Shown one piece after another: positions 1,880 through 18,871 of a stretch of 20,142 bases of DNA. Position 1 is the stretch's first letter. Every line of letters starts with the position of its first letter. A program made the position numbers and the translations under genes. The notes beneath the pieces were generated by a model. That model saw only the letters and a list, made by a program, of their open reading frames with translations. It did no database searches and was not told the DNA's origin. The stretch is from a virus, in IMG/VR virus record IMGVR_UViG_3300010354_014354, positions 1-20,142 of that record; one strand, 5' to 3'.

Positions 1880-2521
1880 ATGAACCATATCAAACTGAAA
1901 TTTTATTACGAGACTGTTCTTACCCATGCACGCGGGGAAGGAGATTCTTCCTATCATGCCACTCTAACCAAAGACGTTGTGTCCAAGTTTGTGGATGCCA
2001 TGAATCTGCCCAAAGATGCTGTGATCTTGGATCTGGGCTGCGGGCCCGGTTATTTCCTAGACGAAATGAAGTCACGCGATTTTTCTGATGTCATTGGCGT
2101 CACGCTGAGTCCAGACGATGCTGAACAATGCAAGGCCAAATCACACAAGGTGCGTCAGGGCGACATGAACTTTCTATCAGAGCTGGATGAAAGCGTGGAC
2201 TTGATTTGGGCTAGACAAAGCCTGCAGCATAGCCCGTTTCCCTACATCACACTGTTGGAGTGGAATCGAGTGCTGAAGCCACGCGGTCGACTCTACATAG
2301 AAGTACCACAGCCCGATTGCGAGCGCCATCACGAGAATTCACTTAACCACTACAGCGTGTTGGGTCTCAAGATGTGGCTCAGTCTTCTGGCACGTACAGG
2401 GTTTGATGTGTCCTGGCACGAGGTTTCGGTGCCCATCAGTTTTGATAACGAAAAAACCTGGATCGAAGAAAAGGTATATATCTTTGACTGCACTCGCAAA
2501 CGAGCAGTTGATGTGAAATAA
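1880..2521 (+). CDS. Class I SAM-dependent methyltransferase
   Basis: A 213-residue protein with a Rossmann methyltransferase core. Motif I is VILDLGCGPGYF at about residues 48-59. The acidic residue after strand 2 is unclear. A QGDMNFL segment corresponds to motif II, and VDLIWARQSLQHSPFP to the post-motif region typical of Methyltransf_11 proteins. LEWNRVLKPRGRLYIEVP (about 127-144) is motif III. The late part (SLLARTGFDVSW) matches the usual final strand of small-molecule methyltransferases. It is preceded by a late-promoter motif and followed one base later by the terminase gene, so it is probably expressed with packaging genes. The acceptor is unknown; sugar or lipid modification is more likely than DNA, since no target-recognition domain or NPPY-type motif is present. 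Confidence 0.82.
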   Translation: MNHIKLKFYYETVLTHARGEGDSSYHATLTKDVVSKFVDAMNLPKDAVILDLGCGPGYFLDEMKSRDFSDVIGVTLSPDDAEQCKAKSHKVRQGDMNFLSELDESVDLIWARQSLQHSPFPYITLLEWNRVLKPRGRLYIEVPQPDCERHHENSLNHYSVLGLKMWLSLLARTGFDVSWHEVSVPISFDNEKTWIEEKVYIFDCTRKRAVDVK

Positions 2522-2522
2522 T

Positions 2523-4097
2523 ATGGCCAAACCCGGCGAAGTCACTCTAGTCAAGGCTCCGCACAGTGCTGCGGTATACACTGACCAGCAGATACAGGAA
2601 TTTGCCCGGTGCGCAGATCCCGTCACGGGACCCATGTACTTCCTGGACAATTTCTTTTTCATACAGCATCCGGTGCGTGGACGTATGTTGTACCATCCTT
2701 TTGACTATCAACGTAGGTTGATACAGACCTACCACGACTACAGATTTGTGATCAGCATGATGCCACGCCAGACCGGCAAGTCAACGTCTGCGGCAGGTTA
2801 TCTATTGTGGTATGCTATGTTTGTGCCGGACAGCACCATCCTTGTGGCCGCGCACAAGTACACTGGCTCACAGGAAATTATGCAGCGCATACGCTATGCC
2901 TATGAAAGCGTGCCGGATCACATACGTGCGGGTGCCGTGGACTACAACAAAGGCAGTCTCACGTTTGACAACGGCAGTCGCATAGTGTCAGCCACCACAA
3001 CTGAAAACACTGGACGTGGTATGAGTATTTCCTTGCTGTACGCAGACGAGTTTGCATTCGTGCGCCCCACCATAGCCACAGAGTTTTGGACTTCAATTTC
3101 GCCCACGCTGGCCACAGGTGGTAAGGCCATTATTACATCAACTCCCAACAGTGACGAAGATCAGTTTGCCTTGCTGTGGAAAGGTGCCAACAAGTGCGTT
3201 GACGAATACGGCAACCCCACCGAAGTGGGCATGAACGGCTTCCGGGCGTTCAGGAGTTTCTGGAACGAGCACCCCGATCGGGATGAATCATGGGCTCAGC
3301 AGCAGCGAGCTGCACTAGGCACCGAGCGTTTCCGTCGCGAGATGGACTGCGAGTTCATCATCAATGACGAGACCTTGATCGCGCCCACTACCTTGATTGA
3401 TCTTGAGGGCCGTGATCCCACATTCAAGACCGGTGAAGTGCGCTGGTACAAACGTCCCGAGGCCGGTCGCATATATTGCGTGAGCCTGGATCCCAGCCTG
3501 GGCACCGGCGGCGACCCTGCTGCCATACAGGTATGGGAAGCCAACGGCACAGAGCAAGTGGCGGAATGGCGACACAACAGAACTGACATCCCCACGCAGG
3601 TACGTATCTTGGCCGACATTGTGCGCCAGATCAACGAAGTAGTGAAAAATCCCCAGCAGATCTATTACACCGTGGAAAACAACACCATAGGTGAAGCAGC
3701 CTTGATCAGCATTGCGGAGTACGGCGAGGAAAACATCCAGGGTTATTTCCTCAGCGAACCCGGTGGCTCAGGCGGTTCAGGGCGCAGGTTCCGCAAGGGT
3801 TTCAACACCACCAACAAGCCCAAGCTCGCGGCCTGCGCCAAACTGAAAAATCTCGTGGAAAGTCGGCGGATGCAGATACGCAGCCGCAACCTTATCAGCG
3901 AGCTCAAGACCTTTGTGGCATCGGGCACAGGCTATGCTGCCAAGCCGGGCGAGACCGATGATCTAGTCATGGCCACACTGCTGATTGTGCGTATGCTGCA
4001 GGTCCTGCAGAGTTATCACAGCGATCTTGACTCACAGATGCGTGATCACCAGGACACCCTGATTGAACCCTTGCCCTTCGTGGTCTTGATGAATTGA
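2523..4097 (+). CDS. Terminase large subunit (gp17-like)
   Basis: A 524-residue packaging motor protein. It translocates DNA into the prohead using ATP and cuts the concatemer. The ATPase half shows PRQTGKST (81-88, Walker A), LYADE (172-176, Walker B with catalytic Glu) and TSTP (206-209, coupling motif). The nuclease half has an RNase H fold signature: D323 in SLDPSLGTGG, E385 in TVENN and D479/D480 in GETDDLV, corresponding to the metal-binding acidic triad of T4 gp17. It is shorter than T4 gp17 (610 residues), mainly at the N-terminus, as in many aquatic T4-like phages. No strong ribosome-binding site precedes the ATG, which lies one base after the methyltransferase stop, suggesting coupled translation. 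No small terminase gene is evident next to it. Confidence 0.95.
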   Translation: MAKPGEVTLVKAPHSAAVYTDQQIQEFARCADPVTGPMYFLDNFFFIQHPVRGRMLYHPFDYQRRLIQTYHDYRFVISMMPRQTGKSTSAAGYLLWYAMFVPDSTILVAAHKYTGSQEIMQRIRYAYESVPDHIRAGAVDYNKGSLTFDNGSRIVSATTTENTGRGMSISLLYADEFAFVRPTIATEFWTSISPTLATGGKAIITSTPNSDEDQFALLWKGANKCVDEYGNPTEVGMNGFRAFRSFWNEHPDRDESWAQQQRAALGTERFRREMDCEFIINDETLIAPTTLIDLEGRDPTFKTGEVRWYKRPEAGRIYCVSLDPSLGTGGDPAAIQVWEANGTEQVAEWRHNRTDIPTQVRILADIVRQINEVVKNPQQIYYTVENNTIGEAALISIAEYGEENIQGYFLSEPGGSGGSGRRFRKGFNTTNKPKLAACAKLKNLVESRRMQIRSRNLISELKTFVASGTGYAAKPGETDDLVMATLLIVRMLQVLQSYHSDLDSQMRDHQDTLIEPLPFVVLMN

Positions 4098-4103
4098 TAA
4101 ATA
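4096..4103 (+). promoter_or_regulatory. T4-type late promoter motif (GATAAATA) abutting a start codon
   Basis: The core overlaps the terminase stop codon and ends only 6 bases before the ATG at 4110. With T4 late promoter spacing the transcript would begin at about 4109-4110, that is, at the start codon itself. If used, this would give a leaderless mRNA. Confidence 0.5.
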
Positions 4104-4109
4104 CCCGGT

Positions 4110-5489
4110 ATGAAAGACAATCTAGCCACGGACGTACAAGATTTCCTCGTGACCCAGGGCTTCCAGCCCGAAGCCGTGGACAGCCGCACGGGCAAACCGC
4201 CCGTGGGCGCGGATGGTAGACCCGATCCCAGCCAGGCCGATCTCTTTAGTTTTGACTGGGAAAGCAACGGACGCAATTATGGTACCGTGGTCATACTGTT
4301 GAACAACAACGGTGACTTTGAAGTCTACTACGGTGACAATCTTGGCAAGGGCATGGAGCCCGAGGACAAGAACGACTGGTATCGCTTCCTGGAGCAACTC
4401 AAGCACTTTGCGATCAAAAATGCCCGCATGGGCTTCAAGGTCCAGGATCTAGGCCGTCTGCGATACGCCATGCAGGGCATGGCTGCCATCAAGGAAGGTC
4501 TTTTTGAAGGTTACTATGGACGTCGCAATGTCAGTTACCGCGATGAACCCAAGAAAGTGCGCCTCATGATCCGTCACAATCGCGACCTTGAAGAAGGCGA
4601 AGCGCGTTATCGTGCCATTGAAAGCATCTTTGTCGAGACCGGTGATGGCGAACGCTTCCGTGTGCCCAGCCGCAGTCTCGCACATGGTCGTCTTCTGGCA
4701 CGTCATGCCAGCGAAGGCGGCAGTCCTTATGATGCATTTGGACAGCACATCAATGAGATGATGAGCGAGATACGAGCCCTAGGCTCGTTCCTGCGCGCCA
4801 GCCGACATAGAACCATGGGCGACGAAGCGCAGGCCTTGACTGAGGTGGCAACAAAATACTACGAAGATCTCAAACGCCAGGCTCGTGGCATGATGACGCA
4901 GCGTGGATATCACGCTGCGCGTGAAAGTTTTGATCCCAGCCAGGTGCGTGACAGCAGCGTGGCCGTGGAAGCCATACGTGAGATGTTCACGGAACCCAAA
5001 CTAGACCGCCGCATAGAAGAGGCCTTGCCCCTGCTGTCGCGGCTGGCGGAGATGGACATGAAAGAAGCCAACGAATTTGAATCCTGGGCCAGCGATGTCA
5101 TGGAAGGCACTTGGGAAATACCACGCACCCCTGAACAGAAGAAAAAACTAGTGCAACTCATGGCGGAGCCCTTGGAAGTGGGCGCAGATGCCACCAATGC
5201 CAAGGACGCCTTGGCAGACATCGTGGGCGATGATGAACTGTTTGATCGTCTGGAAGACCTTGCTGAACGTGATCCCCGCGCCAACATTTGGGATGACAAA
5301 GAAGTCATGCTGAGATTGAGCATGCTGGCGCCGTTCATCAAGGACCAAGTTTCCACTCAAGAACCTGCCATGTCTGTGCCGGAAAATCTCGACACCGACG
5401 GTGTCATGATGACCAAGCAAAGCAACATGAGCAGCGAAAGCGTGGAACGTAGCGACTTGTCGCGCATACTAGAACTCGCTCGGCGATAA
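4110..5489 (+). CDS. Large unknown protein of T4-like phage type, next to terminase
   Basis: A 459-residue soluble protein with no signal peptide or membrane segment. The N-terminal third (about 1-110) mixes short strands and Asn/Asp/Gly turns (VVILLNNNGDFEVYYGDN). The middle (about 110-240) contains MQGMAAIKEGLFEGYYGRRN, then IRHNRDLEEGEARYRAIES-type sequence and an FGQHINEMMSEIR helix. The C-terminal half is mostly predicted helix, acidic and rich in Glu, Ala, Met and Leu. From memory, similar proteins occur in aquatic T4-like phages as unnamed genes, but I cannot confirm this. The position after gp17 and the late-promoter motif suggest a late gene, perhaps virion or assembly related. There is no ribosome-binding site at the ATG, which may be read leaderless or from readthrough transcripts. 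I do not assign a function. Confidence 0.8.
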   Translation: MKDNLATDVQDFLVTQGFQPEAVDSRTGKPPVGADGRPDPSQADLFSFDWESNGRNYGTVVILLNNNGDFEVYYGDNLGKGMEPEDKNDWYRFLEQLKHFAIKNARMGFKVQDLGRLRYAMQGMAAIKEGLFEGYYGRRNVSYRDEPKKVRLMIRHNRDLEEGEARYRAIESIFVETGDGERFRVPSRSLAHGRLLARHASEGGSPYDAFGQHINEMMSEIRALGSFLRASRHRTMGDEAQALTEVATKYYEDLKRQARGMMTQRGYHAARESFDPSQVRDSSVAVEAIREMFTEPKLDRRIEEALPLLSRLAEMDMKEANEFESWASDVMEGTWEIPRTPEQKKKLVQLMAEPLEVGADATNAKDALADIVGDDELFDRLEDLAERDPRANIWDDKEVMLRLSMLAPFIKDQVSTQEPAMSVPENLDTDGVMMTKQSNMSSESVERSDLSRILELARR

Positions 5490-5513
5490 ATTTTCCTGAC
5501 CCCCTTCGGACCC

Positions 5514-5521
5514 TGTAAATA
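5514..5521 (+). promoter_or_regulatory. T4-type late promoter motif (TGTAAATA) before the symporter operon
   Basis: The TAAATA core at 5516-5521 is followed by TCTGCAC. The whole 13-base string TAAATATCTGCAC (5516-5528) recurs exactly at 18423-18435. Expected transcription start is near 5527, giving a leader of about 38 bases with a good ribosome-binding site (AGGAG, 5553-5557) before the ATG at 5565. Confidence 0.6.
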
Positions 5522-5552
5522 TCTGCACCTAGGGCAGGTAGCCCCAATCTAT

Positions 5553-5557
5553 AGGAG
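5553..5557 (+). promoter_or_regulatory. Strong ribosome-binding site AGGAG for the symporter gene
   Basis: AGGAG lies 7 bases before the ATG at 5565. It is one of the best Shine-Dalgarno sequences in the window and fixes the start of the first gene of the three-gene cassette. Confidence 0.75.
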
Positions 5558-5564
5558 TCTCTAA

Positions 5565-6818
5565 ATGTCATTCAAGCCAAATGTCTTCTGGCCGGGCGTG
5601 CTGGGCGCGTTCGTTTGCTGGTACGACTGGATTTTGTTTAGTATCTGTACCGCCATTGTGTTCAAGGGCGTGTTTTTCCCTGAAGTCAGTTATCTTGTAC
5701 CACTCATGGTGTTTGCCGCGGGCTATGTAGCACGACCCTTGGGTGGTGTCATTGCAGGACACATCGGTGACAGGGTGGGGCGCAAACCAGTGCTACAGTG
5801 GACGCTGCTGATCACGGCCTGTACCACAGTGGCCATGGGACTCTTGCCCAACTACGCTGAAATTGGTGTGGCAGCGCCCTTGGCTCTGCTGGCCTTGAGA
5901 GTGATCCAGGCCTTGAGCTTTGGAGCGGAACTGGCCAGTACCGACGTCATCAACTATGAATTCCACAAGGAAAATTCACTGCGCGGCACCATCACCAGCG
6001 CCAATGCTGCTGTGCTGCCGGCTGCCATGGTGGCTTCCAGCCTGGCCATCACGCTGATGTTCTTTGATGGCCCCGAAACATTCAAGGACTGGGGCTGGCG
6101 CGTACCGTTCTTGGTGGGCGGCGTGCTGTTCTTGATCGCCTGGTACATCCGTAACCGAGTGTTGGAAACACCAGCGTTTGAAAAGGTTGTAGCCACCAAG
6201 AAGGTAGAACGCGCACCCGTGGTCACTGTGCTGCGCGACCACTGGCAGAAAGTTGTGCTGGGCACCGGCGTTGCTGCCTTGGGCGCGGTGTGGGATTTTA
6301 CTGCCTTGTTGTTTGGCTTTGCGTTCCTGGCCGACAAACTGGGCGTGGATCGAGACCATCTGGGACAGGTAGAACTGGTGTTGGCTGCTGTGGCCATCCC
6401 CTTGACCATCCTATATGGCTACCTGGGCGATAAGTTCAATCGATTGAGACTGTTCAATATCTCGGCGGTGTTGAGCTTCCTGTTGATCTATCCCATCCTG
6501 CACTTCCTCAGCCTGGGCGATGCTTGGATCCCGGTCATTATTGGATTTGTGTTCATGAGCATGTTTACCTATGCGCAAGTTCCAGCCTTTGTGAGCGAGA
6601 TCTTCCCCACGCAGGTGCGCACCACGGGTGCCAGCCTGGTGTTGAACCTGGGCGGCATGTTGGGCGGTATTACGCCACTGGTGTGCTGGTGGCTGTATGA
6701 ACAGCAACAAAACATCTGGGATGTGAGCTGGTGGTTGTTGGCCATGGGCGTTTACGGCCTTGGCAGTGGTCTATTGATGCGCAAGACTTACGATCCCGAA
6801 GCGCATGCGAAAACCTAA
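5565..6818 (+). CDS. MFS transporter, metabolite:H+ symporter (MHS) family
   Basis: A 417-residue inner-membrane protein with about twelve hydrophobic segments. MFS motif A is clear in the loop after segment 2 (GHIGDRVGRKPVL, about 65-77). Family markers of the metabolite:H+ symporters (ProP, KgtP, ShiA relatives) are WGWRVPFLVGGVLFL, followed by an ETPAFE segment, and FPTQVRTTGASLVLNLGG near segment 11. Substrates in that family are small zwitterions or carboxylates such as betaine, citrate, shikimate and 2-oxoglutarate; which one applies here cannot be told. It is slightly short but looks complete. It is preceded by a late-promoter motif and a strong ribosome-binding site, and its 3' end overlaps the ligase gene by 14 bases. 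A full-length transporter of this type is unusual in a phage and probably host-derived. Confidence 0.9.
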   Translation: MSFKPNVFWPGVLGAFVCWYDWILFSICTAIVFKGVFFPEVSYLVPLMVFAAGYVARPLGGVIAGHIGDRVGRKPVLQWTLLITACTTVAMGLLPNYAEIGVAAPLALLALRVIQALSFGAELASTDVINYEFHKENSLRGTITSANAAVLPAAMVASSLAITLMFFDGPETFKDWGWRVPFLVGGVLFLIAWYIRNRVLETPAFEKVVATKKVERAPVVTVLRDHWQKVVLGTGVAALGAVWDFTALLFGFAFLADKLGVDRDHLGQVELVLAAVAIPLTILYGYLGDKFNRLRLFNISAVLSFLLIYPILHFLSLGDAWIPVIIGFVFMSMFTYAQVPAFVSEIFPTQVRTTGASLVLNLGGMLGGITPLVCWWLYEQQQNIWDVSWWLLAMGVYGLGSGLLMRKTYDPEAHAKT

Positions 6819-8256
6819 CAACATATCAGCCAGGCTGCTGACCAACCGTTTGCGTAACGGTCAGGATGTGGCCTTTGTTTTTGGTGACCAATATCTCAGT
6901 CACGAAGAACTATGGCAGCGGTCTCGAAAGGCCGCTGCCATTCTCTTGGCTCAAGGCATCAGACCTCGCCAAAATGTGCTGTTCGTCATGGACGATGCAC
7001 TGGAATGGCCCATACTGTTCCATGCCCTGATCTTGATCGGTGCAGTACCCGTGGTCACCATGCCCACAGTGGACGATGCGTACCTGCAACACATCTGCAG
7101 TCACGTAGACATACACCATGCCTTGGGTGACGCACAAAGAGTGGCCAGCGGTGCCATCAACACAGTGGGCCGCATTGCCAGTGATGACGTAGACAGCACA
7201 CAGGGTGACATGCTGCCCTTGCACCGCATCTATGAATATCATGACCTGGATGCCTGGATCATACTGACCAGTTCCGGTACGACCAGTGCGCCCAAGCTCA
7301 TAGTGCATAGGCATCGCGGCCTGGAAGAAGTATTCACGCGCTACAATCCTTTTGAGTTTGGACCGGAACATCGAGTGTTGTGCTCGGTAAAAATGGCCAG
7401 CAGTTTCGGCATCATCATGAATGTATTGGGCGCCCCAGCACAGGGCATGCAGATGGTGGTGTTGGACACGCCGGGCGACTACCGAGATCTTGTGGACATC
7501 ATGGATCGTCATGGTGTCACTCATGCCATGCTGACTCCGCGCATGATAGGCTTTTTGCTGCACCACGGTCAGCCACGCTTCAATCCTGAACTCCAACACG
7601 TCTACAGTACCGGTGAATCTCTGCCGTTGCCCATGGCCCAGCAGTTCTTGGACAGGTTTGGATACACCGTGTATGACAGTTATGGCTGCGGTGAAGTGCG
7701 TGGGTGGGCGCTGGTGATCAATCACAAAAACAACTGGCGACGCGGCAGCCTGGGTGTGCCAGCATCGCCCACTATATGCCGCATAGTCAATGATCAGGGC
7801 GAGGATTGCAGCGAAGGCGAGATTGGTGAGCTGCATGTGCATCACAGCAATCTGGCCATGGCCTATGCGGGAGATCCCGAACTCAGTGCTGCTCGTTTCC
7901 AAGATGGTTGGTACCGTACCGGTGACTACGTCAGCCGTGACTATCAAGGTTACCTGTTTTATGCCGGCCGCCGCGAGCAGTTGGTGCCCACGGCCAATGG
8001 CTTTTTCAGTTGTTTGGACATAGAAAATCGCATCAATCAGATGCCGGGTGTCACGGACTGCGTGGTGCTGAACAGCAACGAACATGGACTCGAGGCTTTT
8101 GTCATGATACACAGCGCCGAGGCCTGGACCAATGTCATGCATTCTGGGCTCAGTGATCAGGTCACATGGTACTGGGTTGATCAACTGCCGGTCACAGGCA
8201 CCAACAAGAAACTGCGCCAACGCGACCAACTCATGAGCCATGTTATTAAACCATAA
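6805..8256 (+). CDS. AMP-forming acid ligase (acyl-CoA synthetase-like)
   Basis: A 483-residue member of the adenylate-forming superfamily, which makes an acyl-AMP from a carboxylic acid and ATP and usually passes the acyl group to CoA or a carrier. Core motifs are intact: the TSSGTTSAPK phosphate loop (155-164), YGCGE (293-297), GWYRTGDY (368-375) and GRREQ at the domain hinge (388-392). LPVTGTNKKLR near the end carries the catalytic Lys (K468, aligned with the Lys of PxTxxGK). Variations include N before that Lys instead of G, and E/Q at the hinge instead of D/D. Length is a little below benzoate-CoA ligase types. It overlaps the transporter by 14 bases and the acyltransferase by 17, so the three products probably work together. 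No carrier protein gene is visible nearby. Confidence 0.88.
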   Translation: MRKPNNISARLLTNRLRNGQDVAFVFGDQYLSHEELWQRSRKAAAILLAQGIRPRQNVLFVMDDALEWPILFHALILIGAVPVVTMPTVDDAYLQHICSHVDIHHALGDAQRVASGAINTVGRIASDDVDSTQGDMLPLHRIYEYHDLDAWIILTSSGTTSAPKLIVHRHRGLEEVFTRYNPFEFGPEHRVLCSVKMASSFGIIMNVLGAPAQGMQMVVLDTPGDYRDLVDIMDRHGVTHAMLTPRMIGFLLHHGQPRFNPELQHVYSTGESLPLPMAQQFLDRFGYTVYDSYGCGEVRGWALVINHKNNWRRGSLGVPASPTICRIVNDQGEDCSEGEIGELHVHHSNLAMAYAGDPELSAARFQDGWYRTGDYVSRDYQGYLFYAGRREQLVPTANGFFSCLDIENRINQMPGVTDCVVLNSNEHGLEAFVMIHSAEAWTNVMHSGLSDQVTWYWVDQLPVTGTNKKLRQRDQLMSHVIKP

Positions 8257-8845
8257 TCACGCCCACGCCACTTATGTGATTGGTTCTGGAGTGTTTGCTA
8301 AAGAATGCCTCCAGGTGCTGTATCGCGAAGGTGTCAAGCAGGTAATCAATTTGGAATACACTGACTTCCACTTGGTGCCACAGGGTGCCCAGGTGTTTCT
8401 GGGATTCAACAACACCGTGTACCGCAGGAACTTTTTTGCTGCGCACGACCATCAACTGTACCGTTGGCCCACTTATGTACATGACAGTGCAGTGATAGAA
8501 GAATTCAACTGTCTGGGGCAAGGCGTCTGGATATATGCCTTTGTGTATGTGGGATGGCACAGCACCGTGGGTGACTTCAATGTCATGGGTGGCCGTGCCG
8601 ATCTTGGACATGCGGTACACACCGGGCGCAACAACTACCTTGGACCTGGTGCTACTCTCACGGGCGGTATCACCACTGGCGACAATGTATTTTTTGGTGC
8701 CGGCACTGTGGTCAGCAACTATCTCAACATCTGCGGTGACACCAATTTCCTGATCAATAGCGTGGTGCACAAAGATGTCACCCAGCCTGGCAACTACTAC
8801 GGCAATCGAGCAGTTCCCGGCAACAAAATCATTCAAACTCGTTGA
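8240..8845 (+). CDS. PglD/NeuD-type acyltransferase with left-handed beta helix
   Basis: A 201-residue protein. Residues about 10-80 form a small Rossmann-like domain (TYVIGSGVFAKECLQVL), the usual N-terminal domain of PglD/NeuD sugar acetyltransferases. From about 85 on there are hexapeptide repeats (for example GDFNVMGGRADLGH, TGRNNYLGPGATLTG, TGDNVFFGAGTVV) forming a left-handed beta helix. H124 in ADLGHAVHTG aligns with the catalytic His of this family. These enzymes move an acyl group from acyl-CoA onto an amino group of a nucleotide sugar or similar acceptor, as trimers in the cytoplasm. The ATG lies inside the ligase gene (17-base overlap). Because it is coupled to an acid ligase, the donor might be something other than acetyl-CoA; that is inference. 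Confidence 0.85.
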   Translation: MLLNHNHAHATYVIGSGVFAKECLQVLYREGVKQVINLEYTDFHLVPQGAQVFLGFNNTVYRRNFFAAHDHQLYRWPTYVHDSAVIEEFNCLGQGVWIYAFVYVGWHSTVGDFNVMGGRADLGHAVHTGRNNYLGPGATLTGGITTGDNVFFGAGTVVSNYLNICGDTNFLINSVVHKDVTQPGNYYGNRAVPGNKIIQTR

Positions 8846-8871
8846 CGGACTAAATACAGTTACGCTATACT
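8842..8871 (+). promoter_or_regulatory. Sigma-70-like promoter for gp32, overlapping a late-type motif
   Basis: TTGACG at 8842-8847 and TATACT at 8866-8871 are separated by 18 bases, a good bacterial housekeeping promoter. Transcription would start near 8878, leaving a leader of about 59 bases before the gp32 ATG. A late-type motif, ACTAAATA (8849-8856), lies within the spacer. The -35 overlaps the stop codon of the upstream acyltransferase gene. The arrangement would let gp32 be made early by host polymerase and again late. Confidence 0.6.
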
Positions 8872-8936: not shown

Positions 8937-9935
8937 ATGGCATCTTTAGCAGAAATCCGCGCACGACTCCAAGCCGCTGAGTCGAACAAAGGCGGACAAT
9001 CAAATGGCGGCGACAACGCGATCTATCCCCACTGGAACATCGAAGAAGGCGCAAGCGCAGTAGTGCGTTTCTTGCCCGATGGCAATCCAAAGAACACTTT
9101 CTTCTGGGTTGAACGTGCGATGATCAAACTCCCATTTGCAGGTATCAAGGGCGAACTGGAATCCAAACAGGTCCAGGTCCAGGTACCCTGCGTGGAAATG
9201 TGGGGCGAGGCTTGCCCGATCTTGGCCGAGGTCCGAACTTGGTTCAAGGACAAGAGCCTTGAAGACATGGGTCGCAAGTACTGGAAGAAACGCAGTTATG
9301 TGTTCCAGGGCTTTGTGCGTGAGAATCCCTTGGCCGATGACAAGAATCCCGAGAATCCCATCCGGCGCTTCATCATTGGTCCGCAGATTTTCCAGACCAT
9401 CAAGTCAGCCTTGATGGATCCAGAATTGGAAGAACTGCCTACAGATCTCATGCGCGGTCTGGACTTCCGTATCACCAAGACCAGCAAGGGTGGCTATGCC
9501 GACTACTCCACTTCCAAGTGGGCTCGCAAAGAGAGCTCGCTGACAGAAGCCGAGCAGGCAGCCATTGAAAAGTATGGCTTGTTTGATCTCAACGAGTTCT
9601 TGCCCAAGAAGCCCACCGAGGTCGAACTGCGAGTCATGAAGGAGATGTTTGAAGCATCTGTGGATGGCAAGCCCTACGATCCTGAGCGCTGGGGTGCGTA
9701 CTTCCGTCCTGCTGGTCTCGCTGCTCCCAAGGAGTCAGCGCAGGCCGCAGCAGCACCTGCTCCGGCAGCAGCACCGGCTGCGGCCAAGGTCGAAGCCAAG
9801 GCAGCACCAGTAGTGAGCAGTTTTGACGAAGAGGATGATGCTCAGGCGGCCAATGCTCCGGTGCAGGCCAAGGCGCAGCCACAAAAGGCTGAGGACATCT
9901 TGGCCATGATCCGAGCTCGCCAAAACAAGGGCTAA
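8937..9935 (+). CDS. Single-stranded DNA-binding protein, gp32-like
   Basis: A 332-residue protein with the T4 gp32 plan. The N-terminal segment (1-25, MASLAEIRARLQAAESNKGG) is Arg/Lys-bearing and would drive cooperativity. The core runs from NAIYPHWNIEEGASAVVRFLP (about 28-47) through KKRSYVFQGFV (117-126) to about 255. A flexible Ala/Pro-rich linker follows (about 265-295). The C-terminus has an acidic patch, SSFDEEDDAQAAN, that would contact replication partners, then ends with EDILAMIRARQ. It coats ssDNA in replication, recombination and repair. In T4 gp32 zinc is bound by one His and three Cys; here C85 and C93 remain, but the last Cys is Leu (CPIL, L96) and no equivalent His is seen, so zinc binding is probably lost. 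It has its own promoter and ribosome-binding site. Confidence 0.9.
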   Translation: MASLAEIRARLQAAESNKGGQSNGGDNAIYPHWNIEEGASAVVRFLPDGNPKNTFFWVERAMIKLPFAGIKGELESKQVQVQVPCVEMWGEACPILAEVRTWFKDKSLEDMGRKYWKKRSYVFQGFVRENPLADDKNPENPIRRFIIGPQIFQTIKSALMDPELEELPTDLMRGLDFRITKTSKGGYADYSTSKWARKESSLTEAEQAAIEKYGLFDLNEFLPKKPTEVELRVMKEMFEASVDGKPYDPERWGAYFRPAGLAAPKESAQAAAAPAPAAAPAAAKVEAKAAPVVSSFDEEDDAQAANAPVQAKAQPQKAEDILAMIRARQNKG

Positions 9936-9942
9936 TCACTCA

Positions 9943-10515
9943 ATGTTGAGGAGTCGACGGGTAGCGGTATCTTATGATACCGCTACCTTTCATGATCTGG
10001 CGTGTTACATACCTGGAATCGAGAGGATCACTCCCGATCAGTTGTTCACTGACTGTGATGCCGACTTGGAATACATCAATCTAGTGAATAGAGATCTGGA
10101 CCTAAGGCGACAGATCAGTGAGTTTATCGACGGCCATGCTCTTCGCAGATTCTCATATATACATCCAACAGCAGTTACGACTGGTGCCAGTATAGGCCTG
10201 GGAGCAATGATCTATCCCGGTGTAGTGGTTTATCCCAATGCCACAGTTGGCAAAGATGTTTTGATACATGCCAACACATTGATAGCTCACCAGGTGAGCA
10301 TTGGGGACGGTGTATACATCAGCGGAGGCGTAACAGTGGGCGGGAGAACCACTATTGGCCGGTGGTGCATGTTAGGCTTGGGTGCCACCATCTACGACAA
10401 TGTCGTGATCGTGGACCAAGTGGTCGTGGGAGCATCAACCACGGTGCGTAAATCTGTCAATCAAGCCGGCACATATTGCATGGCCAGTGGTTTGAGACTG
10501 AGAAAACTAAAATGA
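9943..10515 (+). CDS. PglD/NeuD-like acyltransferase (second copy type)
   Basis: A 190-residue protein. Hexapeptide repeats run from about residue 75 (HPTAVTTGASIGLGAMIYPG) to 180. H116 in TLIAHQVSIGDG matches the catalytic His of PglD/NeuD acetyltransferases. The N-terminal part (1-70) is short and lacks the usual GxGG nucleotide-binding loop. The ATG at 9943 is 7 bases after the gp32 stop; AAGGG at 9927-9931, inside gp32, could serve as its ribosome-binding site. No alternative in-frame ATG or GTG is obvious in the N-terminal region. A perfect hairpin (9960-9987) lies in codons 6-15. The 3' end overlaps the next gene as ATGA. It probably acetylates an amino sugar in concert with the following three genes. 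The start is less certain than the fold. Confidence 0.8.
   Translation: MLRSRRVAVSYDTATFHDLACYIPGIERITPDQLFTDCDADLEYINLVNRDLDLRRQISEFIDGHALRRFSYIHPTAVTTGASIGLGAMIYPGVVVYPNATVGKDVLIHANTLIAHQVSIGDGVYISGGVTVGGRTTIGRWCMLGLGATIYDNVVIVDQVVVGASTTVRKSVNQAGTYCMASGLRLRKLK
9960..9987 (+). terminator. Perfect 12-bp hairpin just after gp32, possible terminator or attenuator
   Basis: The left arm 9960-9971 (GGTAGCGGTATC) and right arm 9976-9987 (GATACCGCTACC) are exact reverse complements with a TTAT loop, and TTT follows at 9988-9990. It begins 25 bases past the gp32 stop. The short T run makes it a weak intrinsic terminator on paper. It also falls inside the first codons of the acyltransferase gene, so it may act as an attenuator or as a 3' stabiliser of gp32 mRNA. 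Confidence 0.55.
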
Positions 10516-11177
10516 ACGATTGGTATCTAAAACTAGATGACTTTGTGATCGACGAGGACATTGTAGAGCGCCTCCGCGACATGGACGTTTCCAAATTGCC
10601 CAACCTGCATACCAAGTTCGGTCCATGGTATTATCTTCGAAAAATGCTCGCCAAGGGGCGTTGGTGGCAGAGCCGCAAGGACTATGGTTGGTTTTGTCAA
10701 AACACCAGTGAAATGCGCAGCCTGAGAATAGAGGATGATCTTACTGAACGTATCAGACAGTGTGTGCGAGAGTTAGTGGGACATGAACTAGCACAAGAAG
10801 CAGTGATTCGTTTGCAATTGGTGTATGGTGGTTCCGTCATCCCGCATCATATTGACATGACACGGCAAGTCAGTCTGGTATATCCTGTAGTACATGATCG
10901 TCCCAGTGTGACAGAATTTTATGACAGCCAATACAATAATGGCCAGGAACGAGACTTCGTTGGGGTGGAACCACCCAAGCGGCCTGCGGTGTCTTTATCT
11001 ATAGAAACCAAGGCGGTACTGCTCAACACCAACATCGTGCATGCTGTGAGATATGCCAAAAACGCCTATACCTTGCATCATCCCAGACGAAGTATCACGA
11101 TCAAATGGCAACATAAAGATTTTTCGCAAATCACAGCCGCTATATACAAACGTCGCGGCTACGTTCCGCCTTCTTGA
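10512..11177 (+). CDS. 2OG-Fe(II) oxygenase-like protein
   Basis: A 221-residue protein starting at the ATG (10512) that overlaps the previous stop as ATGA; an ATG 36 bases upstream would give a longer N-terminus but lacks this coupling. The fold suggested is the double-stranded beta helix of 2-oxoglutarate/iron oxygenases. H113 and D115 in PHHIDMTRQVSL form the HxD pair, H177 in LLNTNIVHAV is the distal metal ligand, and R192/R193 in PRRSITIKW may bind 2-oxoglutarate. Such phage proteins usually hydroxylate small molecules, sugars or proteins. The spacing is within family limits, but the overall sequence is divergent. It lies between an acyltransferase and two glycosyltransferases in an overlapping operon, so a glycan or glycan-precursor substrate is likely, by inference only. 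Confidence 0.72.
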   Translation: MNDWYLKLDDFVIDEDIVERLRDMDVSKLPNLHTKFGPWYYLRKMLAKGRWWQSRKDYGWFCQNTSEMRSLRIEDDLTERIRQCVRELVGHELAQEAVIRLQLVYGGSVIPHHIDMTRQVSLVYPVVHDRPSVTEFYDSQYNNGQERDFVGVEPPKRPAVSLSIETKAVLLNTNIVHAVRYAKNAYTLHHPRRSITIKWQHKDFSQITAAIYKRRGYVPPS

Positions 11178-12163
11178 TGTCAGATATGATCCTATGCCTG
11201 AGTCCCTACACAGACGATTGTGATCCTGAGCGTTGGCTGGATTCCCAACACGGTATCGTGCTGTCAGACCATCTGGGCCCGTTTGACCCCCAGGGCAACA
11301 ACGATCTGCTGCATCGTCTGCAACGTGCCTGTGAGCACCGCGGTCTGCGCCGACAATTTTTTTGGGTCAACTATCTAGAGCCCTGGGCCAGTCAATTATA
11401 TCCCAACTTAGACATAAGATTTGACTTGTTCAAAGGTCCTCACCATCGTGATCTTTATGAGCCATTGAAACTGTACCAGCGCCACCCGCCGGTGAACTTC
11501 CAAAATTTTGTTTGCAGTTTCAACGGAGCCATGAGCGTGGGAAGGCAATTTTTGGTGTCGGCCCTGCACCGGCGTGGATGGTTGCGCCAAGAATACAGCA
11601 GCAAAAATTTTGCTGTGGATCCACTTGTTCTTGATGGCAACATACAAGCAGCCATGGGCCACGATCCCGGCGGCACAATCAAGCAGTTCATTGCTGACAC
11701 TGAATCGGAATTTTGGAATCAATGCTGGGGATTTGGTCATTTGCGTTTTGAACACGGGCGCAACATTTACAATCTTGAATCTGCCCTGACACAGAGTTTT
11801 GTGCATGTGGTAAGTGAGACCATGAGCAGTTCGCACCATCCCTATGTCACAGAAAAATTCTTGTACAGTGTTGTTACGCGGGGTTTGTTCGTGGCCTTTG
11901 CACAACCTGGCTGGCATCGGCACCTTGAAGCGATTTACGGATTTAGACCTTACCAACATCTGTTTGACTATGGATTTGACAACGAGATCAATGCTGTCCG
12001 GCGTTTGATACGTCTCTTGGACATGTTGAGCAAGTACGAGCACCTCAGCACACAGGACTGGCATGATCTCTACACTCTTGAGTCAGACACTATCGAATAC
12101 AACTACGACCATTTCATGTCAGGTGGGTATGAGCGCGCCGTGCAAAAGTGGATCCATACATGA
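11177..12163 (+). CDS. GT10-like glycosyltransferase, first of a related pair
   Basis: A 328-residue protein. The ATG at 11177 overlaps the previous stop as TGATG; a TTG three bases upstream is less likely. The C-terminal domain resembles that of alpha-1,3-fucosyltransferase-like (GT10) enzymes: VVSETMSSSHHPYVTEKFLYSVVTRGLFVAF (in two pieces, 211-220 and 223-241), then a PGWHRHLEAIYGFRPY segment and an EYNYDHF end. In this fold the Glu and TEK segment (225-227) binds the nucleotide sugar. The N-terminal half has CLSPYTDDCDPERW and a QNFVCSFNGAMSVGRQ strand. No signal peptide or membrane segment is visible, so it acts in the cytoplasm. The donor and acceptor are unknown. The next gene aligns with it over the C-terminal half. 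Confidence 0.65.
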   Translation: MSDMILCLSPYTDDCDPERWLDSQHGIVLSDHLGPFDPQGNNDLLHRLQRACEHRGLRRQFFWVNYLEPWASQLYPNLDIRFDLFKGPHHRDLYEPLKLYQRHPPVNFQNFVCSFNGAMSVGRQFLVSALHRRGWLRQEYSSKNFAVDPLVLDGNIQAAMGHDPGGTIKQFIADTESEFWNQCWGFGHLRFEHGRNIYNLESALTQSFVHVVSETMSSSHHPYVTEKFLYSVVTRGLFVAFAQPGWHRHLEAIYGFRPYQHLFDYGFDNEINAVRRLIRLLDMLSKYEHLSTQDWHDLYTLESDTIEYNYDHFMSGGYERAVQKWIHT

Positions 12164-13362
12164 AGACTTACGTGCCTTTTTATCCCTACAACATCAATCT
12201 GTACCGACTACAATACCAATCTGACTGGTCTTGGTTACGTAAATGGCCCGATGATGCGCCACTGGTGGCATGGAGTCTCGAATACATTCATCCCGCAACA
12301 GTATCGCAGTTGTTGCACCATATACAGAGCGTGAGACCAAATAATCCCTTGTGCTGCTTGCTGCATCCACAACAAAGTCACGTTTCCAATCCTCCACAGA
12401 TGCCCAAATCAGTCGAGCTTACCTACATCAACATGGATCGACTGTGCTTTTACTTTGAAATGTACTTGTGGAAATCCACACGCCTCAATCCACAATGGAA
12501 TCCGCAGAGCAAGAAATTTTTATATACCATGGGCAAGCCTGACAGACCTCTGCGTCTCAGATTGATGTATGCGCTGTACAAACAGGGTCTACTGGACCAT
12601 GCTGAATGGAGCATGTACTTGGACCTTGCGTTGGAACGCACCTGCAGATCCATCATGACCGAACTGTCGGACACTGAATATCAAGACTTCGTTGAACACA
12701 CAGTCCGGACCTTGGATCCCATTCCGGCCATGTTGGGCGCTGCGGGTAGTTTTCACTATAACGCTTACCCATTTGATCCTGACATCTTTGCTCGCACCAG
12801 TTTCAGGCTGCTGAATGAGACTATGATGCATGATGAGATTTCACTAACCGAAAAAACCATGATCACCATGGCCAACCGGCAACCTTTCATCATGGTGGCC
12901 TTGCCGGGCACCTTGGCGTATTTACGAGACCAAGGTTACCGCACCTTTGAGCAATATCTACCCTGTCCAGACTACGACAGCGAAGTCGACGATGCTCGCC
13001 GCGTCAACATGATCATAGAAAATCTTCGGCACTGGCTGTCTGACATAAACACGTATGCCCAAGACATAGCCTGTGACTTGGAGCATAACTATCATTTACT
13101 GATGCAGCACATACGCAGCGACTATGAAGAATATCATAGGTTTTGGCGAAATTTTCCAGCAAGTGATCACATCACAAAGTTCTTGCCCTTGAGCCAACAG
13201 AGGTCTTATTGGATGAACCAGTATTACAGCATCAAGGATGACAGTTGGCCCGACTGTTGGGTGCAAGAGCATTTTCAGCATTTGCCCCAGTACATACAGG
13301 ATGAATGCCAGACTGAGTACAACATCAACCCCAAAACACTAGCGAAAAATCTAGACTTATAG
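12160..13362 (+). CDS. GT10-like glycosyltransferase, second of a related pair
   Basis: A 400-residue protein. The ATG at 12160 overlaps the previous stop as ATGA; a GTG 12 bases upstream is the alternative. It shares with the preceding protein a KFLYTMGKPDRPLRLRL region (119-135), a LLNETMMHDE segment (217-226), LTEKTMITMANRQPFIMV (229-246), a PGTLAYLRDQGYRTF loop and an LEHNYHLLMQH end. The match of these blocks in order suggests duplication and divergence. It is longer, with an extra block around residues 150-215 (a helical stretch, then NAYPFDPDIFARTSF). No membrane segment is present. It probably adds a sugar to a phage- or host-derived glycan. Whether the catalytic residues are intact cannot be settled by eye. 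It ends 35 bases before uvsX. Confidence 0.58.
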   Translation: MKTYVPFYPYNINLYRLQYQSDWSWLRKWPDDAPLVAWSLEYIHPATVSQLLHHIQSVRPNNPLCCLLHPQQSHVSNPPQMPKSVELTYINMDRLCFYFEMYLWKSTRLNPQWNPQSKKFLYTMGKPDRPLRLRLMYALYKQGLLDHAEWSMYLDLALERTCRSIMTELSDTEYQDFVEHTVRTLDPIPAMLGAAGSFHYNAYPFDPDIFARTSFRLLNETMMHDEISLTEKTMITMANRQPFIMVALPGTLAYLRDQGYRTFEQYLPCPDYDSEVDDARRVNMIIENLRHWLSDINTYAQDIACDLEHNYHLLMQHIRSDYEEYHRFWRNFPASDHITKFLPLSQQRSYWMNQYYSIKDDSWPDCWVQEHFQHLPQYIQDECQTEYNINPKTLAKNLDL

Positions 13363-13397: not shown

Positions 13398-14456
13398 ATG
13401 CCAAAGCCATTTGACGTCAGCAAGTTCCGCAAGGAAATCACCAAGAGCATCGATGGACTCTCCATCGGTTTCAATGACCCCACGGACTGGATCAGTACCG
13501 GCAACTATGCCCTGAACTATCTTATCTCGGGTGACTTCAACAAGGGCATCCCCCTGGGCAAGGTCACAGTGTTCGCGGGCGAATCTGGTGCAGGCAAGAG
13601 CTACATCTGTTCCGGCAACATCGTTAAGCATGCACAGCAGCAAGGTATCTTTGTGGTGTTGATCGACACAGAAAACGCCTTGGACGAGACCTGGTTGCAT
13701 GCCTTGGGTGTGGACACAGATGAAAGCAAACTGTTGAAACTCAGCATGGCCATGATCGATGACGTGGCCAAGACTATATCCACTTTCATGACTGACTACA
13801 AGGCCATGGCCGCAGAGGAGCGACCCAAAGTGTTGTTTGTGATTGACTCTGTGGGCATGTTGTTGACACCCACGGACGTGAATCAGTTTGAAGCCGGTGA
13901 CATGAAAGGTGACCTCGGTCGCAAGGCCAAGAGTCTCACGGCCCTAGTGCGCAACTGCGTCAACATGTTTGGCGCTTACAACGTGGGGCTAGTGTGTACC
14001 AACCACACCAATGCCAGTCAGGACATGTTTGATCCCGACGACAAGATCTCGGGCGGACAGGGCTTTATCTACGCCAGCAGCATCGTGGTGGCCATGAAAA
14101 AGCTCAAGCTCAAGGAGGACGAGGACGGCAACAAGATCTCGGACGTCATGGGCATCCGCAGTGCCTGCAAGGTCATGAAAACACGCTATGCCAAGCCATT
14201 TGAGGGAGTGCAGGTCAAGATTCCTTACGAGACAGGCATGAATCCTTACTCGGGCCTGACAGATCTCGCTGAGAAGAAAAACATCCTGAAAAAGGACGGT
14301 AACCGTCTCATGTTCGTGACTTCGGAAGGCGAAATTGTTAAATACTTCCGTAAGGGCTGGGAGAGCAACGAAGATGGATGCCTTGACAAGCTCATGGCAG
14401 ACTTCTCTCGCATCGCTCCCGCAACAGCAGCCGACGAACCTGAGGAAACCGCATGA
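13398..14456 (+). CDS. uvsX: UvsX, RecA-like recombinase
   Basis: A 352-residue strand-exchange ATPase. Walker A is GESGAGKS (61-68), Walker B is VLFVID (145-150), and the loop regions typical of UvsX are visible: NQFEAGDMKGDLGRKAKSL, VCTNHTNASQDMFDP and KISGGQGFIYASS. The C-terminus is acidic (ADEPEETA). UvsX forms filaments on ssDNA and drives recombination-dependent replication, loaded by UvsY against gp32; all three types of protein are coded in this window. The ATG has AAGGAC about 10 bases upstream (13383-13388). No convincing promoter is seen in the 35-base gap, though a short palindrome (13359-13370) lies there. The stop overlaps the next ATG as ATGA. Confidence 0.95.
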   Translation: MPKPFDVSKFRKEITKSIDGLSIGFNDPTDWISTGNYALNYLISGDFNKGIPLGKVTVFAGESGAGKSYICSGNIVKHAQQQGIFVVLIDTENALDETWLHALGVDTDESKLLKLSMAMIDDVAKTISTFMTDYKAMAAEERPKVLFVIDSVGMLLTPTDVNQFEAGDMKGDLGRKAKSLTALVRNCVNMFGAYNVGLVCTNHTNASQDMFDPDDKISGGQGFIYASSIVVAMKKLKLKEDEDGNKISDVMGIRSACKVMKTRYAKPFEGVQVKIPYETGMNPYSGLTDLAEKKNILKKDGNRLMFVTSEGEIVKYFRKGWESNEDGCLDKLMADFSRIAPATAADEPEETA

Positions 14457-15673
14457 TACAGCAAGCCTGTACACACCAAAAAACAAGCCTAATCAGTGGA
14501 CAGGAACTTGTGCCTGTGCTGGATTTTGGCATGCATGCCTGCGCCGACACCTTTGTTGGCGTGCATCAGCTCACGCTCAGCGAGCCGACCTTTCCCTTGG
14601 TCTGTGGACTGGACACAGTGACAGGCTACCTGCAACTGCAGAACATCACCCCGGCCTCGGATCGCTACACGCTGTATGATTACAGTTACACCAGCGCCAA
14701 CAATCTACCTGCACAGCGGCACTGGGCCGAACTGGCTGATTGGATCATGCGCAACTGCAATATCGCGTCTCGTCCCGTGGTGGAAGTTGGCAGCAATGAT
14801 GGCTTCCTGTTGGAACTGCTACAGAACCGTGGAGTGCAGGTGATCGGTATTGATCCCAGCCCCGGCATGATCGAGATGGCCCGCGCTCGCAAAATTGAGT
14901 GCTTGGCCACGATGTGGGACGAAGCAGCCGCAGCCGAAGTGGTACACCGCAAGGGCAAGGTGGCGGCTGTGATCAGCAACAATGTCTTGAATCATGCCAA
15001 TGATCCTTTGGCGTTTGCACTAACAGTCAAGAGCGCCCTGTTCCGCGGTGGCTACTGGGTGTTTGAGGTTCCGTATCTGCAGGACCTGGTAGCGGGCGAC
15101 AGATTTGATCAGATCTATCATGAGCATGTGAGCTACTTCACTGTCAGCAGCATCAAGCATCTCTTGGACGCAGCGGGCTTTGGTATCGTGGCCATTGATC
15201 GTATTGATTATCATGGCGGCAGCCTGAGAGTGGCAGCACAGATTGGTAAGCCTCATGCTGCTGTGGTATCGCCCATGATCGCAGCAGAACGTCAGCGTGG
15301 CTTGTTTAGTCCCGACACGTTCCGTGACTGGCAGGCGCGCCTGGTTACTAAACGCAATACATGGTTGGAAAAGTTCTATCAGCGTGTCAACGAGCAGCCC
15401 GAAGTGCCTGTGATAGGCGTGGGTGCTGCTGCCAAGAGCAACACGGCCTTGACCTGGTATCGCCTGGACAACACCGTGATCCGCTGCATCACTGATGCCA
15501 GCCCGCTCAAGCAGGGCAAGTTCACTCCCTTGACTCGCATACCCATCCGGCATGACGAAGAATTTGCCAATCATCCCCGGGCCACGGCCCTGATACTGAG
15601 CTGGAACCTCAGTGCGCAGTTGATGAAGACCATCAGCAACATCAACTCCAACGTAGACTTTATTTCTCTTTGA
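14453..15673 (+). CDS. Sugar C-methyltransferase-like (NovU/TylC3 type)
   Basis: A 406-residue protein with the three-part plan of deoxysugar C-methyltransferases: N-terminal zinc-binding domain (about 1-65), SAM-binding domain (about 75-260) and C-terminal domain (about 265-406). Motif I is VVEVGSNDGFLLELL (109-123). Family markers are IYHEHVSYFTVSSIKHLLDAAGF and HGGSLRVAAQ, and the C-terminal domain has GVGAAAKSNTALTW. The zinc-binding quartet is degraded: C6 and H8 are present and C51 is kept, but the expected CxxC before GYLQL is D54/T57. The enzyme family methylates a carbon of a nucleotide-bound keto-sugar. It is coupled to uvsX by ATGA. It may act in the same glycan route as the neighbouring transferases. 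Confidence 0.8.
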   Translation: MIQQACTHQKTSLISGQELVPVLDFGMHACADTFVGVHQLTLSEPTFPLVCGLDTVTGYLQLQNITPASDRYTLYDYSYTSANNLPAQRHWAELADWIMRNCNIASRPVVEVGSNDGFLLELLQNRGVQVIGIDPSPGMIEMARARKIECLATMWDEAAAAEVVHRKGKVAAVISNNVLNHANDPLAFALTVKSALFRGGYWVFEVPYLQDLVAGDRFDQIYHEHVSYFTVSSIKHLLDAAGFGIVAIDRIDYHGGSLRVAAQIGKPHAAVVSPMIAAERQRGLFSPDTFRDWQARLVTKRNTWLEKFYQRVNEQPEVPVIGVGAAAKSNTALTWYRLDNTVIRCITDASPLKQGKFTPLTRIPIRHDEEFANHPRATALILSWNLSAQLMKTISNINSNVDFISL

Positions 15674-18451: not shown

Positions 18452-18871
18452 ATGCTCAAAGACGTTATCCAGGCCCAGGGCGTAAAAATCATCGAGCCCG
18501 TGAATCTCTACGGATGCAAACTCGAACAAGATTGTTTTGTTGGGCCTTTTACCGAGATCCAGAATGATGTAGTGGTGGGCGCTCGCAGCCGAGTGCAGAG
18601 CCACAGTTTCATTTGCAGCAACGTGCGCATCGGCGAAGACTGTTTCGTGGGCCACGGTGTGATGTTTACCAATGACAAGTTCCGCGACCGGCAGCTCAGC
18701 AAAGACTTTTTGCCCACGCGCATAGGTAACAAGGTCTACATCGGCAGCAACAGCACCATCTTACCTGTGACCATCTGCGATGACGTGGTGATAGGAGCAG
18801 GCAGCGTGGTCACCAAAGATATAGTCGAACCTGGCACCTATGCCGGCAACCCTGCTGTCAGGATCAAGTAA
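18452..18871 (+). CDS. WbpD/WlbB-like nucleotide-sugar N-acetyltransferase
   Basis: A 139-residue protein made almost wholly of hexapeptide repeats (LbH fold), shorter than family members of about 190. Markers are FVGPFTEIQNDVVVG (29-43), QSHSFICSNVRIGEDCFVGHGVMFTND (in two pieces, 49-60 and 61-75) and the terminal YAGNPAVRIK. The GHGVMFTND segment is typical of WbpD and FdtC/QdtC enzymes, which acetylate an amino group of a nucleotide sugar. Its partner in the WbpD pathway is the Gfo/Idh oxidase WbpB, and a candidate for that lies two genes on. The start is at ATG 18452 with a GGGGA site and late-promoter motif upstream. The stop overlaps the next start as TAATG. The exact sugar is unknown. 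Confidence 0.8.
   Translation: MLKDVIQAQGVKIIEPVNLYGCKLEQDCFVGPFTEIQNDVVVGARSRVQSHSFICSNVRIGEDCFVGHGVMFTNDKFRDRQLSKDFLPTRIGNKVYIGSNSTILPVTICDDVVIGAGSVVTKDIVEPGTYAGNPAVRIK

Follow-up and report, generated by a model that had tools for sequence, protein, structure and literature searches.

Gene content and setting of the locus

We analysed a 20,142-nucleotide stretch of viral DNA, hereafter the window. Judging from its genes, the window covers part of the genome of a jumbo T4-like phage; the backbone order terL, structural gene, gp32 and uvsX, with homologous proteins, matches that of the PA5oct/Atu_ph07/GAP32-like jumbo phages. In isolate relatives, only about 200–260 bp separate the structural gene from gp32; this slot was hypervariable among 58 records. 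In the window, this slot contains a cassette that, from the open reading frames and family models, consists of an MFS symporter of probable MHS type, an AMP-forming ligase and a NeuD/PerB-type acyltransferase, all on the + strand (Table 1). The three genes and their overlaps of 14 and 17 bases, as proposed in the first-pass annotation, were borne out by the ORF coordinates. Because each gene has a homologue in L101, a related 222-kb contig, and the ligase and the acyltransferase retain their catalytic residues, the three are more than chance ORFs.

Table 1. Features of the window, with positions counted from its first nucleotide
Feature	Position	Strand	Remark
Terminase large subunit (backbone)	2523..4097	+	
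Structural protein (backbone), left edge of variable slot	4110..5489	+	
Candidate late promoter of the cassette, TGTAAATA	5514..5521	+	not above chance
MFS transporter, metabolite:H+ symporter (MHS, 2.A.1.6) type, predicted import step	5565..6818	+	417 aa
MFS/ligase overlap, 14 bases	6805..6818	+	
AMP-forming acid ligase (ANL superfamily), C-terminal domain complete, predicted activation step	6805..8256	+	483 aa
Ligase/acyltransferase overlap, 17 bases	8240..8256	+	same length in L101
NeuD/PglD/PerB-type left-handed beta-helix acyltransferase, predicted transfer step	8240..8845	+	201 aa
gp32 promoter region, TTGACG-18-TATACT + CTAAATA (8850-8856)	8842..8871	+	bounds cassette
gp32 ssDNA-binding protein (backbone), right edge of slot	8937..9935	+	
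Second NeuD-like hexapeptide acyltransferase	9943..10515	+	TIGR03570 106 bits
Conserved protein, glycosyltransferase-like by eye only	11174..12163	+	no Pfam/PHROG match; homologues in 9 relatives
Conserved protein, glycosyltransferase-like by eye only	12148..13362	+	no Pfam/PHROG match; homologues in 8 relatives
UvsX recombinase (backbone)	13398..14456	+	
C-methyltransferase, Methyltransf_13/23/14 type, as in sugar C-methylation	14453..15673	+	PF08484 98 bits
Third hexapeptide acyltransferase	18452..18871	+	
Gfo/Idh oxidoreductase, UDP-GlcNAc 3-dehydrogenase-like, cut by contig end	19485..20142	+	PF01408 71 bits; NF040723 = best NCBIfam match

Among the expression signals that had been proposed, a ribosome-binding site was found as a GGAG Shine-Dalgarno-like site 5' of the first ATG. 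The late-type promoter did not hold up, as TGTAAATA is one of eight one-mismatch matches to TATAAATA in the window, where 5.2 are expected by chance. The gp32 promoter 3' of the cassette is conserved; 56 of 60 sequences, the window among them, have TAAATA ahead of gp32 (11 expected). Elsewhere, the window encodes a radical SAM protein (NF033640, 225 bits). An 82-aa acidic ORF at 15692 was considered as an acyl carrier protein and dropped; it is a conserved uvsX neighbour in 53 relatives and matches no family. Family scans detected no acyl carrier protein gene in the window.

The three cassette proteins

The symporter scored 78 bits with MFS_1 (cut-off 33.4). Its best NCBIfam match, over the full length, was the metabolite/H+ symporter model TIGR00883, with 273 bits, under the cut-off of 443. 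The L101 homologue (33% identity) likewise matched TIGR00883 with a score under the curated cut-off.

The ligase scored 188 bits with the AMP-binding model PF00501 (cut-off 29.9). Residue comparison showed that its motifs are conserved (SSGTTxxPK 157-164, E297, D374, R389 and K468), and the A3, A5, A7 and A8 motifs, the A10 lysine and the two-domain fold that define the ANL superfamily are all present. The AF2 model (pLDDT 87) gave a TM score of 0.88 to the anthranilate-CoA ligase 4wv3 and of 0.87-0.88 to acyl-CoA ligases, and the nearest enzymes are catabolic benzoate-type CoA ligases. The ligases of the window and L101 are 42% identical. Bacterial homologues were at most 30% identical among the matches listed. 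Both phage ligases have R299 and W301, positions at which other residues are the most frequent in the bacterial sequences.

The acyltransferase matched a hexapeptide transferase model with 30.7 bits (cut-off 27). With the NeuD model TIGR03570 it scored 91 bits against a cut-off of 160.8, and is therefore a distant relative rather than a NeuD equivalog. The NeuD/PglD/PerB architecture is present, i.e., an N-terminal sugar-nucleotide-binding part and a left-handed beta-helix with the catalytic His. The best solved relative was PerB (4ea7), in which the catalytic H141 aligns with H124. The predicted structure is of low confidence (pLDDT 68, Foldseek E 0.05); it has an N-terminal alpha/beta part and a beta-helix, and the informative structural matches were all to PglD, PerB, WeeI and PglB. 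The substrates of the solved relatives are all nucleotide amino sugars, lipid-A amino sugars or sugars related to them. Identity to the L101 homologue is 44%.

Recurrence of the trio in related phages

Single-protein scans of IMG/VR with each cassette gene gave no matches, and the homologues emerged only from the alignments with L101. There, the ligase, acyltransferase and MFS genes occupy the same slot, with the structural gene on one side and gp32 on the other. The recurrence of the trio in another phage was thus confirmed, although the gene order is permuted (ligase-acyltransferase-MFS). This full triad with an MFS transporter was found in two genomes only. Ligase and MFS matches in the 'phages' collection (19-35% identical) were set aside, as most of them were wastewater or fecal contigs without annotation, or annotated pieces of bacterial genomes.

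Directly 3' of gp32, L101 carries a second trio, composed of a NeuD-like acyltransferase, a short AMP ligase and a Na+/solute symporter (SSF). This trio is also complete in L028/L113, right after gp32, and so occurs in at least two phages in all; its ligase-symporter end is present in L115 with 95-99% identity. The second-trio ligase (331-341 aa) is much shorter than that of the first trio, and the SSF symporter has no homology to the MFS symporter. A search for the short ligase in Burkholderiales gave weak partial matches only. An origin of the second trio by duplication of the first was rejected in view of the unrelated transporters and the only marginal similarity of the ligases.

In the records searched, AMP ligases were confined to the trio loci (including L115) and one solitary copy. 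Four of the five complete ligase loci in this phage group are trios; at the fifth, in L054, the ligase stands without an acyltransferase or a transporter. Together with the non-homologous symporter of the second trio, this count suggests that the combination of importer, ligase and acyltransferase was probably assembled twice. A functional unit is strongly supported, because the trio recurs and the second trio has the same three classes with a transporter of a different superfamily. The first-pass reading of the genes as import, activation and transfer is supported in part; the late promoter that had been included in it is not supported.

Sugar genes and the proposed pathway

A Gfo/Idh gene is present in the window and in its closest sister, G040, which also encodes a DegT sugar aminotransferase. 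The sister's Gfo/Idh enzyme is UDP-GlcNAc-3-dehydrogenase-like as well, and these neighbouring genes make an amino-sugar acceptor plausible. The aminotransferase was also found in G042; no Gfo/Idh was present among the genes found in that contig, and the acceptor sugar may therefore differ between phages. The amino-sugar genes occur in the same phages as the ligase and the acyltransferase but in separate slots.

In the pathway that we propose, the symporter would make more of a carboxylic acid, small and probably polar, available to the cell, and the ligase would convert the imported acid to an acyl-AMP and then to an acyl-CoA. The acyltransferase would then acylate a nucleotide-activated amino sugar at its amino group. 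A likely acceptor is a 3-amino-3-deoxy-UDP-GlcNAc-type sugar, which the phage may make itself with its Gfo/Idh dehydrogenase and a DegT aminotransferase (found in the sister contig). The decorated sugar would be built into a glycan, most likely a host surface polysaccharide, where it may mask the receptor against other phages, or else a virion glycan. On the sequence evidence, we lean slightly towards the three genes forming one functional unit for acid import, CoA activation, N-acylation of a nucleotide amino sugar and glycan decoration. We see an even chance for the wider proposal, in which jumbo phages assembled this module at least twice from non-homologous parts and a captured environmental or host-released acid is the donor for an unusual N-acyl sugar on the host surface or the virion.

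The acyltransferase may instead be a conventional sugar N-acetyltransferase that takes acetyl-CoA from the host, next to a nutrient module of transporter and ligase that feeds an acid as its CoA thioester to host catabolism, the adjacency being incidental. NeuD relatives with known function are mostly acetyl-CoA users, and the PDB names of the NeuD/PglD/PerB enzymes also describe acetyltransferases. Catabolism is a frequent role of MHS symporters, the closest enzymes to the ligase are catabolic as described above, and the lone ligase of L054 fits the same picture. We nevertheless consider this explanation unlikely, since a NeuD-type enzyme is present in both independently composed trios, the 17-base ligase/acyltransferase overlap is found in both phages having the pair, and the window encodes no enzyme of acyl-CoA catabolism.

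Another explanation concerns the transporter, which may be an exporter or antiporter, or may import a compatible solute or a carboxylate for another purpose, while the ligase and the acyltransferase draw on a host-made acid. Proline/betaine carriers are known among MHS and SSF members, ProP was among the NCBIfam matches of the symporter, and the same slot of a relative, L084, contains the TctA component of a tripartite tricarboxylate transporter but no ligase or NeuD. This appears quite improbable to us, because two unrelated symporter superfamilies, both mainly uptake systems, adjoin a ligase and a NeuD-type gene. An acceptor other than a sugar, such as a hypermodified DNA base, a virion protein or a peptide or siderophore-like small molecule, would agree with the known hypermodification of phage DNA, the radical SAM protein and a Burkholderiales locus (L254) with SDR-ligase-NeuD beside NRPS, but is likewise quite improbable given the sugar-directed solved relatives of the acyltransferase, the sugar genes surrounding the cassette and the absence of a thymidylate-synthase-type base-modifying enzyme from the fragments G042, G043 and G040.

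Comparison with known systems

The statement that no described phage system has this combination agrees with our limited literature searches. By gene description, the cassette can be compared with the Vibrio cholerae O1 system, in which an O-antigen amino sugar is acylated at its amino group with an unusual acyl moiety from a dedicated acid pathway that includes WbeL, presumably an AMP ligase. The sugar is perosamine, N-acylated with tetronate (wbeKLMNO, VC0248-VC0252), and loss of WbeL (471 aa) leads to resistance to phage ICP1 (PMC3441752). However, that locus is a bacterial chromosomal O-antigen locus with no phage copy, the acid is synthesised rather than imported, and the described gene groups include no acid transporter. 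The cassette has a symporter in place of acid biosynthesis with an acyl carrier protein.

In a Burkholderiales O-antigen-like cluster, L255 (G117), the gene for a NeuD/PglD-type acyltransferase also precedes that for an AMP ligase (471 aa), and genes for a sugar transferase, an epimerase and a glycosyltransferase lie next to them. It has LuxE/LuxC-type genes (NeuD-ligase-LuxE-LuxC) where the cassette has the symporter, and the ligases are only 24-26% identical. The pairing of ligase and NeuD is thus known from bacterial O-antigen clusters, and the new element is the dedicated uptake. With the PerB/PglD/NeuD sugar N-acetyltransferases, the cassette acyltransferase shares the fold family and the aligned catalytic His; those enzymes use acetyl-CoA donors, whereas the presence of a dedicated ligase and a transporter in the cassette points to a different acyl donor.

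Phages carry sugar and glycosyltransferase genes. In T4-like cyanophages and pelagimyophages, scattered sugar genes are believed to modify the O-chain of the host (PMC9602691, PMC7029224); the parts of these reports consulted describe glycosyltransferases, epimerases and sugar synthesis, with no acid import or activation. The tctA of SUP05 viruses is a phage-borne carboxylate transporter (PMC4164917), reported without a ligase or an acyltransferase.

The presence of the same trio in relatives, once rebuilt with a different importer, suggests that these viruses use outside acids for glycan decoration, and the finding of two non-homologous trios at the same places in related genomes indicates strong selection in favour of acyl-sugar chemistry. 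If this is true, a dedicated acyl-group route including uptake would be a new layer of phage glycan chemistry, in which the building block is imported and not made. The outcome of infection, i.e., superinfection exclusion, receptor change or the virion surface, would then depend on an acid outside the cell, and the trios would help in predicting the occurrence of unusual acyl sugars in glycans from the environment.

Arrangement and recurrence of the three genes

The overlapping reading frames for a transporter, a ligase and an acyltransferase were confirmed, with overlaps of 14 and 17 bases, and a GGAG ribosome-binding-like site is present upstream of the first gene. The late promoter proposed in the first-pass annotation at position 5514 (TGTAAATA) was no better than chance. 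The conserved element assigned upstream of gp32 is present: 56 of the 60 upstream regions contain TAAATA, where 11 would be expected, and a sigma-70-like pair before gp32 matches 10/12. The first gene encodes a 417-aa MFS protein, the second a 483-aa AMP-forming ligase (PF00501, 188 bits; cut-off 29.9), and the third a 201-aa NeuD/PglD-type hexapeptide acyltransferase.

The expectation that the trio would recur elsewhere held for gene content but not for order. All three genes occupy the same slot, between the structural gene and gp32, at locus L101 on a related contig of 222,775 bp, where the order is ligase, acyltransferase, MFS transporter. Identities to the window are 42% for the ligase (493 columns), 44% for the acyltransferase and 33% for the MHS-type MFS protein, and the ligase and acyltransferase genes again overlap by 17 bases. 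The L101 contig was the sole match when IMG/VR was scanned with the ligase and acyltransferase alignments, and therefore the MFS-type trio is rare, being found in two genomes. TIGR00883 matched none of 46 relatives searched, a set that excludes L101.

A second trio after gp32

Directly 3′ of gp32, L101 carries another set: a NeuD-like acyltransferase, a 341-aa AMP ligase and a 457-aa sodium:solute symporter (SSF). L028, of one species with L113 and L114, has the same set behind gp32 (38%, 41% and 44% to L101), and the ligase-symporter end is present in the distinct phage L115. No similarity links the SSF transporter to the MFS one, and only a distant similarity is seen between the two types of ligase and between the two types of acyltransferase; the short ligase has the N-domain motifs without the usual C-terminal lysine domain. 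SSF turned up in 4 of 49 records, always at the second trio. Since this recurring trio is built from dissimilar parts, the same combination of functions appears to have been put together twice; no other evidence links the three functions as strongly.

A search for AMP-binding genes covered 89 records from the phage group; as most of these are fragments, absences carry little weight. Outside the trio loci such a gene was found only in L054, without an acyltransferase or transporter; trios make up 4 of the 5 complete distinct ligase loci.

The variable slot in the phage backbone

The window spans an entire 20-kb IMG/VR record, and its gene order (terminase, structural gene, gp32, uvsX, uvsY) is that of the jumbo phages PA5oct/Ettore, Phosso, Atu_ph07, GAP32 and XbC2, with 46-53% identity in gp32. 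The interval between the structural gene and gp32 is about 200-260 bp in those isolates and ranges from about 13 bp to 2.5 kb in the 58 records with both flanks measurable (4 of them isolates); the window's insert is larger than any other seen. Cargo also differs among relatives, being a glycosyltransferase/GDSL/methyltransferase-like trio or TctA, and the interval is a hypervariable slot. Between L115 (1-1863) and L113, the ligase and SSF symporter are 95-99% and uvsX 98% identical, whereas intervening genes are absent or reach 40-66%, a pattern of cargo being swapped rapidly between neighbours that stay conserved.

The other cassette, recurrent in this slot in many relatives, was assigned by eye as glycosyltransferase-like, 'FTFGCSFTQYWRWPTWADALG' GDSL-like and methyltransferase-like genes. 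A methyltransferase gene immediately upstream of the terminase is kept in L073 and L101 (58-59%) and is missing at that place in L113. A Twitch-domain radical SAM protein between uvsX and uvsY (NF033640, 225 bits, above cut-off) is kept in 38 relatives.

Positions of the genes discussed
Feature	Record	Position	Remark
MFS symporter	window	5565-6818	+ strand
AMP-forming ligase	window	6805-8256	+ strand
Acyltransferase	window	8240-8845	+ strand
Methyltransferase	window	1880-2521	
Radical SAM protein	window	15941-17206	
Hexapeptide acyltransferases, two more	window	9943, 18452	
C-methyltransferase	window	14453	
Gfo/Idh oxidoreductase	window	19485	truncated; closest to UDP-GlcNAc 3-dehydrogenase
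Glycosyltransferase/GDSL/methyltransferase-like cassette	L073, L015, L046, L113, others	3843-6174, 3096-5376, 3318-5549, 3920-6232	by eye
TctA, tripartite tricarboxylate transporter	L084 (IMGVR_UViG_3300020403_002430)	670-2109	334 bits; slot region
ORFs of TctC/TctB size	L084	3645-4697, 4698-5051	no Pfam match
Lone 473-aa AMP ligase	L054	1874-3295	between gp32 and uvsX; then 82-aa protein
NodU/CmcH-type carbamoyltransferase	L205 (G042)	5930-7417	near glycosyltransferase-like genes
Adjoining amidinotransferase-looking protein	L205 (G042)	7412-8434	no Pfam match

Enzyme features and candidate acceptor

In the ligase, the parts that ANL enzymes use for adenylation are intact (phosphate-binding loop, E297, D374, R389 and, at the C-terminal end, K468), and the predicted structure of this protein (pLDDT 87) gave TM-scores of 0.87-0.88 to anthranilate-, benzoate- and malonyl-CoA ligases. 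R299 and W301, just past the A5 motif, are common to both phage ligases and atypical among 33 bacterial homologues, a hint that the acid substrate may be out of the ordinary and perhaps charged. In the acyltransferase, whose TIGR03570 score (91 bits) is below the cut-off of 160.8, H124 aligns with the catalytic H141 of the perosamine N-acetyltransferase PerB; confidence in the model is low (pLDDT 68), and its informative Foldseek matches, all PglD/PerB/WeeI/PglB, have weak E-values. That this protein is a plain acetyltransferase beside a nutrient module is unlikely. Another role for the transporter, whose top NCBIfam model is the metabolite:H+ symporter TIGR00883 (273 bits, below the strict cut-off of 443), is improbable.

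Sugar-type genes are interleaved with the backbone genes of the window. The closest sister contig, G040 (uvsX 93%, gp32 88%), begins within gp32, so that its cassette slot is not visible; it keeps the window's order and then carries a complete Gfo/Idh gene, a DegT/PseC-like sugar aminotransferase and a nucleotidyltransferase-cupin protein, together with several long glycosyltransferase-like proteins. Dehydrogenase, aminotransferase and acyltransferase together form the logic of 3-amino sugars, as in WlbA/WlbC/WlbB or GnnA/GnnB. Another phage genome, G042, has a different DegT enzyme, an epimerase and a carbamoyltransferase, and no Gfo/Idh was found in it; the acceptor sugar may therefore differ. 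An acceptor other than a sugar is the least probable of the alternatives.

Relation to known systems and proposed function

The nearest system in working principle is that of V. cholerae O1, in which tetronate is carried on perosamine amino groups and WbeL is required and controls sensitivity to phage ICP1 (PMC3441752). An AMP ligase adjoins NeuD in 2 of 25 Burkholderiales NeuD loci sampled, once within an O-antigen-like cluster. LPS-type genes in T4-like phages (PMC9602691 and PMC7029224) and tctA in SUP05 phage contigs (PMC4164917) are likewise already known. In agreement with the first-pass annotation, no description of a phage with ligase, acyltransferase and transporter was found in the literature, of which coverage was partial; the BFVD structure library holds just a handful of phage ANL enzymes.

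There is good support for a functional link among the three genes, and we infer the rest: an acid, a CoA step, an amino acceptor and a glycan. The best reading, which we hold with moderate confidence, is that an acid would be imported, activated to acyl-CoA and used to N-acylate a nucleotide amino sugar, which would end in a surface or virion glycan.
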